Below, in pieces: positions 7,395-16,260 of a stretch of 64,000 nt of DNA (within the stretch, counting starts at the first letter, position 1; each line of letters starts with the position of its first letter). Below the pieces are notes generated by a model. It saw nothing but the letters and a program-made list of their open reading frames with translations, was not told the origin of the DNA and searched no databases. The translations under genes were made by a program, and so were the position numbers. The stretch lies in the NCBI RefSeq assembly GCF_000426625.1, contig NZ_KE384547.1, positions 1,851,159 to 1,915,158 on the forward strand, given 5' to 3'. This stretch comes from Psychrilyobacter atlanticus DSM 19335 (GTDB lineage Bacteria > Fusobacteriota > Fusobacteriia > Fusobacteriales > Fusobacteriaceae).

Positions 7395-8108
7395 TTAAAA
7401 TATCAATCTCAATAAAATATAGGTAACAAATGTCCCTAAAATACTTCCTGCCATAACCTCTTTAGGAGAGTGAATCCGGCCTTCAATCCTCGATTGAGCC
7501 ACTAAAAGTGCTATTCCAAAAGTTAGTATTGTTACCACTATATTTTCTGTAGCATAAGATACCCCTACCCAGAGTCCAAAAGCTACTGCTGAATGCCCGC
7601 TGGGCATTCCTCCATGCAGTAATTTTCCTTTTTTGTAATAAGATTTAATTATAAAAACTCCAATTACCACTATAAATATTATGAGTAAAACAGTGTCCAC
7701 ATAGGAAGATTTCAACAATCTAAAGACCTCAAAAGTATCTTTTTTTAATTTTTTACTAAAAATTATATAACCTATCACCAGAGCATTGAGAGATACCACC
7801 AGTACCGCTCCAGCTGCTACATCTTTGGCTTTTTTAGCCAGTGGATGATACCTAGTTGTACTAATATCCACTGCAGCTTCTATAGCGGTATTCATAAGTT
7901 CTGCAAAAAACACCAGGGATATAGCAAAAGAAAGGCTTTTCAGGTCAGATCCTGTTACACCAAATATAAGACTCAATATAACCACTAAGATCCCGGCAAA
8001 TATATGAACCCTCATATTTCGTTCTGTTTTTATAGCTGTAACTATACCCTCTAGAGCATAATTTATACTTTCACTAAATTTACCATTTTTAGTTATTTTT
8101 TTTGTCAT
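7395..8108 (-). CDS. Fused diacylglycerol kinase (DgkA) and PAP2 phosphatase
   Basis: A 237-residue membrane protein made of two families. Residues about 10-110 match prokaryotic diacylglycerol/undecaprenol kinase: NYALEGIVTAIKTERNMR, then FAELMNTAIEAAVDIS, the catalytic signature. Residues about 145-237 match PAP2 phosphatases: GGMPSGHSAVAFG and RIEGRIHSPKEV. The two halves can phosphorylate and dephosphorylate lipid alcohols such as undecaprenol, implying control of the lipid-carrier pool at the inner membrane. KxxxxxxRP is not seen as in textbook PAP2, but the SGH and RxxxxxH motifs are present. The gene starts behind a hairpin shared with cobQ. Confidence 0.9.
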   Translation of the reverse strand: MTKKITKNGKFSESINYALEGIVTAIKTERNMRVHIFAGILVVILSLIFGVTGSDLKSLSFAISLVFFAELMNTAIEAAVDISTTRYHPLAKKAKDVAAGAVLVVSLNALVIGYIIFSKKLKKDTFEVFRLLKSSYVDTVLLIIFIVVIGVFIIKSYYKKGKLLHGGMPSGHSAVAFGLWVGVSYATENIVVTILTFGIALLVAQSRIEGRIHSPKEVMAGSILGTFVTYILLRLIF

Positions 8109-10971: not shown

Positions 10972-13407
10972 CTATATGATATTATCTTTGTTTTTTATAT
11001 GAATATTTCTTGTTGGAATGGAATCTATAAATAGACTTCCATATCGTTTCTTTATAATTCTATTATCTAAAATTGTTATTACACCTCTATCATCACAACT
11101 TCTGATAAGCCTCCCGATTCCCTGTTTAAATTTAATTATCGATTCAGGTATCTGGTATTCCATAAAGGCATTTTTCCCCTCATCATTTAAATTTTCTATA
11201 ATGGCTTCTACCACAGGATCACTGGGTACTTTAAATGGTAGTTTAACTATGATTACAGAGCTAAGCTTATCTCCTTTCACATCTACACCTTCCCAAAATG
11301 ATGCTGTTCCAAAGAGTACAGGTTTATTGCTTTTTTTATACATATCCACCAATTGATTCCTCGGTGCCTGCCCCTGGATAAATAAGTCATATCCTTCCTC
11401 TTCTAGTCTATCTTTTAACATAAAATATAGATAATTTAATGTAGAATATGAGGTAAACAATAAAAATGTATTCCCCTTTGTCCTCTTTATAAGTTTTTCT
11501 ACAAAATCTTTTATCCCATCTAAAAATCCACGATCTGTAGGAGATGGGAGATCTCTTGGAATATATACTTTCATCTGCCTGTCATAATCAAAGGGTGAAT
11601 CGATAATTTTTTCCAAGACCTCCTCATGTAGGCCTATAGATTCTTTGAAATATTTAAAACTACCATTAATTGCTATAGTTGCAGATGTAAACACCATATG
11701 TTCCAAGTTAGAATATAAATTTTCATCCAATTCATCACTTATTTTTAAAGGTGTTGCTACAAATTTTACGTTACTCTTTTTTTGATTCAGAGATATCCAA
11801 TAGATGAAGTTTTTATCATCCATCTCCTTTATAAAATTATAGTTAGAAAAATATGTTTCCAGCCTCTCAGTATATTTTGTAAAATCACTTATTATTCCTG
11901 TTTCATCATCAATATCCTTTATTACCCGAGTTAAACTCTTTAACCTTCTCATATAAGCATTGTAAGTCAGGAGCATCTCCTCCTCCAATTCCTTCAATGT
12001 CTCCCAATGTTCCCAGTGTTTTAGCTCTTCCTTTCTCAGACGAAGACTGATATTCCCCTGGGACTGTCCTGCAAAGGCTTCTATAACCTTTAGATAGTAT
12101 TCATTCCCACGGTTAGACAGATCTATATGCCGGGATATCAACTCTTCTATGATCTCCTTTTTTATAGAGTCATACCCTTTATAATTTATATTTCTTAAAT
12201 AATTCAAAAGACCTGTATACTTGCTGGCATCTTTTTTCTTCCCTATATGATGGATGTTGTTCATCGTTTTATTGAATGAATATTTAGATGCCTCATAGGA
12301 AAAATAATCCCGGGCTACATTCTCTATATTATGGGCTTCATCAAATACTACCAAGTCATAGTCTGGAAATATAGAATAATCTGTGTTGAACCCTACTTCC
12401 TTTCGTATGGATAGGTCAGCAAAAAACATATGGTGGTTGGTGATCAACACATCAGCCTTTTTCTTTTCCTCTCTGGATTTTAAAAAGAAGCAGCTCTCTT
12501 TAAAAGCACACTTACTCCCTGCACATATATCTGTCTCACTCATAAATTGTTCCCAGACTATGTAATCTACCTCAAAGGGAAGTTCTCCCTTATCACCGGT
12601 TTCAGTAGATTTAAACCACTTCAATATATAGCTCACTTGATCTTTCTGAGAACTACTCATCTCATCGATCTCTGAACTTCCTCCTATCCCTATATTAGCA
12701 GCTTTTCTATTACACAGATAGTTACCCCTACCCTTAACCAAGACATAGGTAAATTTCTGTGGCAGCAATTTTTTAACTATAGGAATATCTTTGTGGAGGA
12801 GCTGTTCCTGTAAATTTATAGTATTTGTTGTAATAATTACTTTTTTCTCATTTTTTATAGCCCATTCTATACTAGGAATTAAGTAAGCGAGGGTCTTTCC
12901 AGTTCCTGTCCCTGCTTCTACTACAACCTTAGTTTTATTGTTCAAACCTTCCTCAATATGTTTAGCCATATGAAATTGTTCTTTTCTATACTCAAATCCC
13001 TTAAATATTCCTGCTAAAAGACCTTTCTCCTCGAAGTAGGGTCCTATATCGATCTTTTGAATCTCTGTTTTATTTATCTCTACCATAACATAGATATCAT
13101 CTACACTATTATTTACAATATACGAAGCCCCGTCTTTTTGATCAGAATACATAGAAGCCACAGCTACATCTGCATCAGAAGGGTATAGATACCCTGAAGG
13201 ATGGTTGTGGATTATTACTTCCCTTTTTTTCATCCTCTTGAGGAGAGCCGGGACTGCTCCTTTATTCCCTCTGGCAATTACCTCTATCTCATCTACTATT
13301 CCTTCATCATTTGGTATACCACGAAAAAACACCTCATTTCCATGGGCGTTCTCAATTTCCTCTTTCATTTTTTCTATTATATTTTCTGAAATTTTTTCTA
13401 ATATCAT
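10972..13407 (-). CDS. dinG: DinG-type Fe-S helicase with N-terminal JAMM (JAB) domain
   Basis: An 811-residue protein in two parts. Residues about 1-120 hold a full JAMM metal motif: Glu25, His67 and His69 in HNHPSG, Ser77 and Asp80 (HNHPSGYLYPSDAD), with H-x-H and ten residues to Asp. The rest is an XPD/DinG superfamily 2 helicase. Walker A AGTGTGKT is at 165-172, four cysteines for the Fe-S cluster are at 232, 295, 300 and 306, and the DEAH box is at 356-359. A C-terminal GIGRLIRS motif VI is also present. DinG unwinds R-loops and damaged replication structures. The JAMM domain is more usual in deubiquitinases and RadC; this combination is described in the findings. Confidence 0.93.
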   Translation of the reverse strand: MILEKISENIIEKMKEEIENAHGNEVFFRGIPNDEGIVDEIEVIARGNKGAVPALLKRMKKREVIIHNHPSGYLYPSDADVAVASMYSDQKDGASYIVNNSVDDIYVMVEINKTEIQKIDIGPYFEEKGLLAGIFKGFEYRKEQFHMAKHIEEGLNNKTKVVVEAGTGTGKTLAYLIPSIEWAIKNEKKVIITTNTINLQEQLLHKDIPIVKKLLPQKFTYVLVKGRGNYLCNRKAANIGIGGSSEIDEMSSSQKDQVSYILKWFKSTETGDKGELPFEVDYIVWEQFMSETDICAGSKCAFKESCFFLKSREEKKKADVLITNHHMFFADLSIRKEVGFNTDYSIFPDYDLVVFDEAHNIENVARDYFSYEASKYSFNKTMNNIHHIGKKKDASKYTGLLNYLRNINYKGYDSIKKEIIEELISRHIDLSNRGNEYYLKVIEAFAGQSQGNISLRLRKEELKHWEHWETLKELEEEMLLTYNAYMRRLKSLTRVIKDIDDETGIISDFTKYTERLETYFSNYNFIKEMDDKNFIYWISLNQKKSNVKFVATPLKISDELDENLYSNLEHMVFTSATIAINGSFKYFKESIGLHEEVLEKIIDSPFDYDRQMKVYIPRDLPSPTDRGFLDGIKDFVEKLIKRTKGNTFLLFTSYSTLNYLYFMLKDRLEEEGYDLFIQGQAPRNQLVDMYKKSNKPVLFGTASFWEGVDVKGDKLSSVIIVKLPFKVPSDPVVEAIIENLNDEGKNAFMEYQIPESIIKFKQGIGRLIRSCDDRGVITILDNRIIKKRYGSLFIDSIPTRNIHIKNKDNII

Positions 13408-15576: not shown

Positions 15577-16260
15577 CTATATAATCCCCTCTTCTGAAAA
15601 ACTATAATATTTTTCCGGGGTTATAATTATATGATCTAAAACCCTCACTTCCAAAGGTTCTAGTATCTTTTTTAACTTTTTAGTCATCTCAAGATCTGCC
15701 TGAGATGGCTTTGGATTCCCAGAAGGATGATTATGAGAAAATATAACCGATTTCGCATTATATTTCAATACACATTTCACTATCTCCCTAGGATATATCT
15801 GGCTCCTATCTATCGTTCCTAAAAATATAATTTCATCTCCTAAATACTTGTTATCAGCACTTAAAAATATAATTTTAAATACTTCTTTCTCTAAGAGTCC
15901 TATACTACTTTTTAAATAATCATATGCAGCTTCTACAGAATTTAAAACAATCTGTTCTCTGAATTTTTCCTTGTATAATTTTTTATTTAAATCGTGTAGG
16001 AGTCTAAAATAAATACAGGTATTTTCGGTTATTCCTTTTATTTTTAATGACAATATCTCATCTTTAGACGCGCTCAAAACCCTCTCTAAAGTTTTAAACT
16101 CATTTAAAAGCTCCTTGGCTGATTCTTTCGTATCTTTCATTGGGATGGTATAAAACAATAGTGCCTCTAAAATTTCATATTCTAGAAATCCATCCAGACC
16201 ATTTTTTAAAATTTTAGTTCTAATCCTGTCTCTATGCCCTGAATGTTCTTTAGCTTTCAC
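15577..16260 (-). CDS. radC: RadC family JAMM-domain DNA repair-associated protein
   Basis: A 227-residue protein. The first 75 residues form a helix-hairpin-helix region. Residues about 100-225 are the JAMM domain, with SHNHPSGNPKPSQAD carrying the metal motif. Despite its name RadC has no proven repair role; it is often found near mobile DNA or cell-division genes. Translation starts at GTG 16260, after GGGGGAA. It follows cobT by 13 bases and precedes ricT by 11, so the cell treats it as part of the cob run. Note that the neighbouring helicase also has a JAMM domain. Confidence 0.92.
   Translation of the reverse strand: MKAKEHSGHRDRIRTKILKNGLDGFLEYEILEALLFYTIPMKDTKESAKELLNEFKTLERVLSASKDEILSLKIKGITENTCIYFRLLHDLNKKLYKEKFREQIVLNSVEAAYDYLKSSIGLLEKEVFKIIFLSADNKYLGDEIIFLGTIDRSQIYPREIVKCVLKYNAKSVIFSHNHPSGNPKPSQADLEMTKKLKKILEPLEVRVLDHIIITPEKYYSFSEEGII

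Follow-up and report, generated by a model that had tools for sequence, protein, structure and literature searches.

DinG-family helicases unwind in the 5′-3′ direction. In the ExoDinG enzymes, represented by the DinG proteins of Staphylococcus aureus, Bacillus subtilis and Listeria (8zef), a DEDD exonuclease lies N-terminal to the helicase. Listeria DinG degrades unprocessed rRNA, B. subtilis DinG degrades the RNA of hybrids and clears R-loops (PMC12525004), and crosslink resistance in S. aureus depends on both the nuclease and the helicase of the enzyme, whose deletion renders the mutant sensitive to mitomycin C and formaldehyde (PMC12345164). Cheng in 2025 recognized ten DinG subgroups, one of which (section 3.8), the RadC-like DinG, is marked by a putative E/H/H/D metal centre, a YoaA-like helicase with four Fe-S cysteines and a host that lacks HolC; according to Cheng, no experiments had been done on it (PMC11981726). 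EndoDinG and CasDinG-HNH are described in the same work, which overturns the statement in a preliminary description of the present locus that known DinG variants carry a DnaQ-like exonuclease or no extra domain.

RadC activity is a long-standing question. The 2003 JAMM paper lists the function of RadC as unknown (PMC300881), and Cheng cites a 2008 paper entitled "RadC, a misleading name?" (PMC11981726). From fusions of RadC to DinG/RAD3 helicases, a 2017 paper on polyvalent proteins from Aravind's group, citing work of 2011, proposed a nuclease or nucleic-acid role (PMC5512222), and a 2012 toxin paper repeats the nucleic-acid proposal (PMC3482391).

A RadC-like DinG in Psychrilyobacter atlanticus

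The window, the whole stretch of DNA that we analyzed, comprises 64,000 nucleotides of Psychrilyobacter atlanticus DSM 19335. ORF reading and domain matches place on its reverse strand, at 10972-13407, a gene for an 811-aa protein in which a JAB domain precedes a DinG/YoaA-type Fe-S helicase. This fusion has already been catalogued: the protein is a RadC-like DinG, which shares with that subgroup the N-terminal RadC-like domain, the E/2H/D residues, the YoaA-like helicase, the four Fe-S cysteines and the lack of HolC, and differs from it in nothing essential (PMC11981726).

The helicase is as the preliminary description had read it. The SF2 Fe-S core spans residues 137-800 (11008-12999, reverse strand, as are all features of this gene) according to Pfam and NCBIfam matches and a structural match. 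Direct reading and alignment locate Walker A (AGTGTGKT, residues 165-172; 12892-12915), the Fe-S cysteine region with C232, C295, C300 and C306 (12490-12714) and the DEAH box (residues 356-359; 12331-12342), and the Helicase_C_2 domain (PF13307, E = 2.3e-49) occupies residues 637-799 (11011-11499). Across the aligned homologues C295 is invariant and the other three cysteines are at least 90% conserved. The full-length AlphaFold2 (AF2) model (pLDDT 87.6) retrieves E. coli DinG (6fwr) and S. aureus DinG as its top structural matches; near the C-terminus it has helices at 783-786, 790-796 and 807-810, among which a counterpart of alpha-7, the C-terminal helix that the RadC-like subgroup has in motor domain 2, may lie. 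The protein is therefore a complete DinG/YoaA-type Fe-S helicase behind a JAB domain, and the arrangement is not due to chance.

YoaA is the best-scoring NCBIfam model, but its 600.9 bits fall under the equivalog cut-off of 680, and HolC (PF04364), the partner of YoaA, is absent from the source genome, the same search recovering it in an E. coli control. The RadC-like DinG is the one DinG-type helicase found in this genome. A linker of residues 112-136 (13000-13074) lies ahead of the helicase, as judged from the NCBIfam NF005981 match (114-808) and short AF2 helices at 122-125 and 130-134. Alignments to the exonuclease-DinG models begin at residue 114 (PRK08074) or 136, and no DEDD exonuclease domain is present at the N-terminus. 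Thus, the JAB domain occupies the position of the exonuclease: this protein and ExoDinG have helicases of one kind, each with a hydrolase-type domain at its N-terminus, but the domain is JAB in one and DEDD in the other.

The N-terminal domain belongs to the RadC branch

Residues 1-111 (13075-13407) form, by sequence and by model, a RadC-type JAB/JAMM domain. The complete JAMM set that had been noted at this locus is confirmed by direct reading: Glu25 (13333-13335), the predicted catalytic residue, His67-Asn-His69 (13201-13209), whose histidines are predicted zinc ligands, and Ser77-x-x-Asp80 (13168-13179), comprising the JAMM serine and the predicted third ligand, sit within GNE...HNHPSGYLYPSDAD. 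All are invariant in the alignment of intact proteins, and their spacing agrees with EXnHxHX7SXXD. Compared with the canonical JAMM motif EXnH(S/T)HX7SXXD, the ligands and spacing match, and the middle residue is Asn rather than Ser or Thr, as in RadC.

The Pfam RadC model scores weakly on the full-length protein (E = 1e-3, 19.4 bits against a cut-off of 22.1), rises above the cut-off on the isolated domain (23.4 bits) and matches 28 of 28 aligned homologues. A profile search returns the RadC structure 2QLC (E = 6.4e-7), followed with weak scores by AfJAMM, and hhalign pairs the domain with the window's own RadC at 95.7% probability. The AF2 model of the domain alone (pLDDT 88.7) has a JAB fold; its top Foldseek match is again 2QLC (E = 1.6e-5, TM about 0.5-0.6), ahead of JAMM proteins of the proteasome, the signalosome and AMSH and of bacterial BubCD. 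The preliminary description had called the domain metalloprotease-type. Its JAB/JAMM fold is borne out, but "metalloprotease" is not the label we would choose by default: the domain is of the RadC branch, whose members have been proposed to process nucleic acids (PMC5512222, PMC3482391).

The domain is nevertheless divergent from RadC, with Pfam scores of 19-23 bits against 145 for the window's own RadC. Stand-alone RadC (PF04002; 2QLC) shares the JAB fold and the HNHPSG...PSxxD motif, but it is a protein of about 225 aa with a UPF0758_N/HhH part before the JAB domain and no helicase, whereas here the JAB domain begins near residue 1, the helicase follows and the spacing from Glu to HxH is shorter. 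The JAMM/MPN+ isopeptidases AfJAMM, Rpn11 and AMSH likewise share the fold and the E...HxH...SxxD zinc site; they differ in having H(S/T)H for HNH, and our protein is fused to a helicase and has no known ubiquitin-like substrate.

Distribution of the fusion

The fusion is real and common in several phyla. It was found in 68 of 80 Fusobacteriota genomes (69 matched, one of them, G078, through RadC alone), 65 of 120 Spirochaetota, 34 of 40 Sumerlaeota, 9 of 119 Acidobacteriota (10 matched, L189 being RadC alone) and 13 of 148 Thermodesulfobacteriota, or 14 if a degenerate case is counted. These counts come from searches of genome samples that used either a profile of the domain or its sequence in the 811-aa protein, in which some matches are fragments and not all matched ORFs were inspected along their full length; phylum names are those of the records behind the centre loci. 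Outside close relatives, the fusion proteins are 31-45% identical to the 811-aa protein.

In the 120 Spirochaetota genomes, DinG helicase matches begin at about profile position 200 or later, and these helicases are therefore JAB-fused or short. No exonuclease-DinG fusion occurs there among the matches listed, the exonuclease-domain matches being separate ORFs. A single origin of the JAB domain on DinG is not shown by the tree, in which the intact rows need at least five label changes on starred branches; these changes include some losses, and many deep branches are weakly supported.

Dead and missing JAB domains

The metal ligands, described earlier as intact in this one protein, prove to be widely conserved: 113 of 120 distinct fusion proteins from at least five phyla keep the Glu, both His, the Ser and the Asp. 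With its predicted zinc site intact and conserved, the domain is probably an active hydrolase.

The remaining seven proteins lack the full site and fall into three lineages. The first comprises a Fusobacteriaceae genus, g9 (G015, G027 and G035; L112-L114), in which the Glu is replaced by S and the two His by R/K and A/T. A Fusobacterium vincentii protein (L223) is 67-71% identical to the g9 proteins and has the same kind of dead site; in all of these, the Glu and both His are replaced on an intact helicase. The second, in one genus of family f4 (G051, G062 and G065; L115, L116/L151 and L117), carries D/R/Y. Its two members in the tree are nested among intact sequences with SH-aLRT support of 99-100%, and the set is a dead-JAB DinG lineage independent of g9. 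In G062, a frameshift or an assembly fault breaks the gene into ORFs of 484 and 381 aa. The third lineage is a single protein, L167, from the Thermodesulfobacteriota sample (G147), with G/R/R/E/E at the five positions. The JAB-like part of L167 covers ORF residues 369-491, and the open frame reaches about 370 residues further upstream.

Other Fusobacteriota keep the helicase without any N-terminal domain, namely two from genus g6 and eight, all with small genomes, from family f4 (L135, L136 and L142-L149). In the tree, the bare helicases of g6 are sister to the dead-JAB proteins of g9, the two groups together making up a clade with an SH-aLRT of 99. This placement agrees with loss of the ligands first and deletion of the domain afterwards, although independent events within the clade would also be possible. 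Walker A and DEAH are intact in the dead and bare lineages. The Fe-S cysteines are likewise retained in g9, in g6 and in the D/R/Y set; in some bare helicases of f4 the cysteine pattern was not matched. Of 80 Fusobacteriota genomes, 79 have retained stand-alone RadC, including those with a dead or missing JAB domain, so RadC was not lost together with the fused domain, and a loss of JAB from DinG that tracks loss of RadC is ruled out. We found no description in the literature of this series, in which the domain is intact, dead or absent, and the main text of PMC11981726 mentions neither Fusobacteriota nor any member from which the ligands or the domain have gone. That paper does describe pExoDinG, in which, as in the Fusobacterium-type members, a dead hydrolase domain is retained on DinG, the domain being a pseudo-exonuclease rather than a pseudo-JAB.

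In the dead-site lineages, the JAB domain likely has a non-catalytic role. Whether this extends to the whole family is more doubtful. The JAB domain might be mainly a module for folding, DNA binding or partner binding, with a structural zinc or vestigial hydrolysis, as the three lineages that retain it without its catalytic residues and the Fusobacteriota that dispense with it while keeping the helicase and stand-alone RadC would suggest. However, a purely structural role does not require the conservation of five residues, the catalytic Glu among them, in 113 of 120 proteins that, close relatives apart, are 31-45% identical to the 811-aa protein. Additionally, relative to the helicase, dead domains diverge faster than intact ones (ratios of 1.2-1.8 and 2.5 against medians of 1.1 and 1.0, from four pairs only), as expected after loss of activity. 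We therefore consider a purely non-catalytic module possible but not probable.

Genomic context

A stand-alone RadC gene (15577-16260, reverse strand) lies close upstream of the fusion, with RicT and a TrmN-like methyltransferase between them. An operon link between the two was rejected, the adjacency being confined to Psychrilyobacter and radC lying elsewhere in other Fusobacteriota. Nor did we find any neighbourhood shared across phyla; the one recurrent upstream match, a phosphoglycerate-mutase-like protein, looks incidental. A role as a defence system was set aside, the strong PADLOC matches being to type IV CRISPR DinG helicase models and falling on the helicase part. Plasmid carriage was also discarded, its sole match being a 2.1-Mb "plasmid" record of F. 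vincentii (NZ_CP084075.1, L223) that looks chromosomal. Three ThiF-family matches in the genome raised the idea of a ubiquitin-like substrate system, but such proteins are common to E. coli and B. subtilis, and their presence says little. Elsewhere in the window, at 7395-8108 on the reverse strand, DAGK_prokar (diacylglycerol kinase) and PAP2 phosphatase domains are combined in one 237-aa protein.

Putative function of the RadC-like DinG

Overall, we favor a model in which the JAB domain acts as a zinc hydrolase and trims the nucleic acid that the 5′-3′ helicase exposes, by analogy with exonuclease-DinG, and we give it a probability of about 0.48. The helicase would run 5′-3′ on single-stranded DNA and open duplexes or R-loops; what the motor presents, nucleic acid or an adduct attached to it, would be hydrolyzed at the zinc site. 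The JAB site would thereby fill the role of the DEDD exonuclease in Firmicutes exonuclease-DinGs, and the RadC-like DinG would take part in replication-stress or crosslink repair. The preliminary description suggested R-loops or stalled forks as the place of action, which is plausible by comparison with B. subtilis ExoDinG (PMC12525004). This model draws on the retention of the zinc site in 113 of 120 proteins, the RadC-type fold, the complete helicase motifs and the exonuclease position of the domain, as well as on the protein being the sole DinG-type helicase found in its genome and on the Spirochaetota being without exonuclease-DinG among the matches listed. The results on S. aureus and B. 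subtilis DinG (PMC12345164, PMC12525004) and the earlier proposal drawn from RadC-DinG fusions (PMC5512222) speak for it too. Hydrolysis is probably accessory, since the helicase persists in some Fusobacteriota from which the zinc ligands, or the domain altogether, have gone.

Several points count against nucleic acid as the substrate. To our knowledge, every JAMM enzyme of known chemistry is a peptidase or an isopeptidase (see also PMC5512222). The literature examined contained no demonstration of nuclease activity for any RadC or JAB domain, the Foldseek matches behind 2QLC are JAMM deubiquitinase-type proteins, and we found no gene neighbourhood conserved across phyla that points to a substrate. 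Moreover, Cheng's DALI search matched metalloproteases and no nucleases (PMC11981726).

The chief catalytic alternative is a protease that acts on DNA-protein crosslinks. In this case, the helicase would meet and unfold a DNA-crosslinked protein and the JAB domain, as a true metalloprotease, would cut it, making the fusion a one-chain counterpart of FANCJ and SPRTN. Unlikely as we consider it, we keep this alternative because proven JAMM chemistry is peptide and isopeptide hydrolysis (PMC300881) and because FANCJ, an XPD/DinG-related Fe-S helicase that our protein matches (9ej9, E = 7.8e-7), unfolds crosslinked proteins and enables SPRTN to cut them (PMC12279946); the formaldehyde sensitivity of S. 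aureus DinG mutants also agrees with it (PMC12345164). However, RadC-branch JAB domains are reportedly unlikely to have the groove that holds a ubiquitin tail (PMC5512222). The domain is compact in its AF2 model, where about 6 residues separate the last two strands, and JAMM peptidases are specific rather than general proteases. Finally, we know of no bacterial example. An extended version, in which the RadC-like DinG is a self-contained helicase-protease of the FANCJ-SPRTN kind and the Fusobacterium-type species reverted to a plain helicase by losing first the site and then the domain, seems to us improbable. Action of the JAB domain on free or modified nucleotides or a base, with the helicase only locating the target, would accord with the kinship of the JAB and deaminase folds (PMC5512222), but no deaminase appears among the profile-search or Foldseek matches listed, and we regard it as very improbable.

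The fusion itself is already catalogued, and its interest lies in what it may reveal about RadC. Here a zinc site of the RadC type is coupled with a motor of known substrates, which makes the DinG fusion a good place to learn what RadC domains cut, and the fusobacterial series of live-site, dead-site and no-domain proteins offers natural mutants for testing RadC function.
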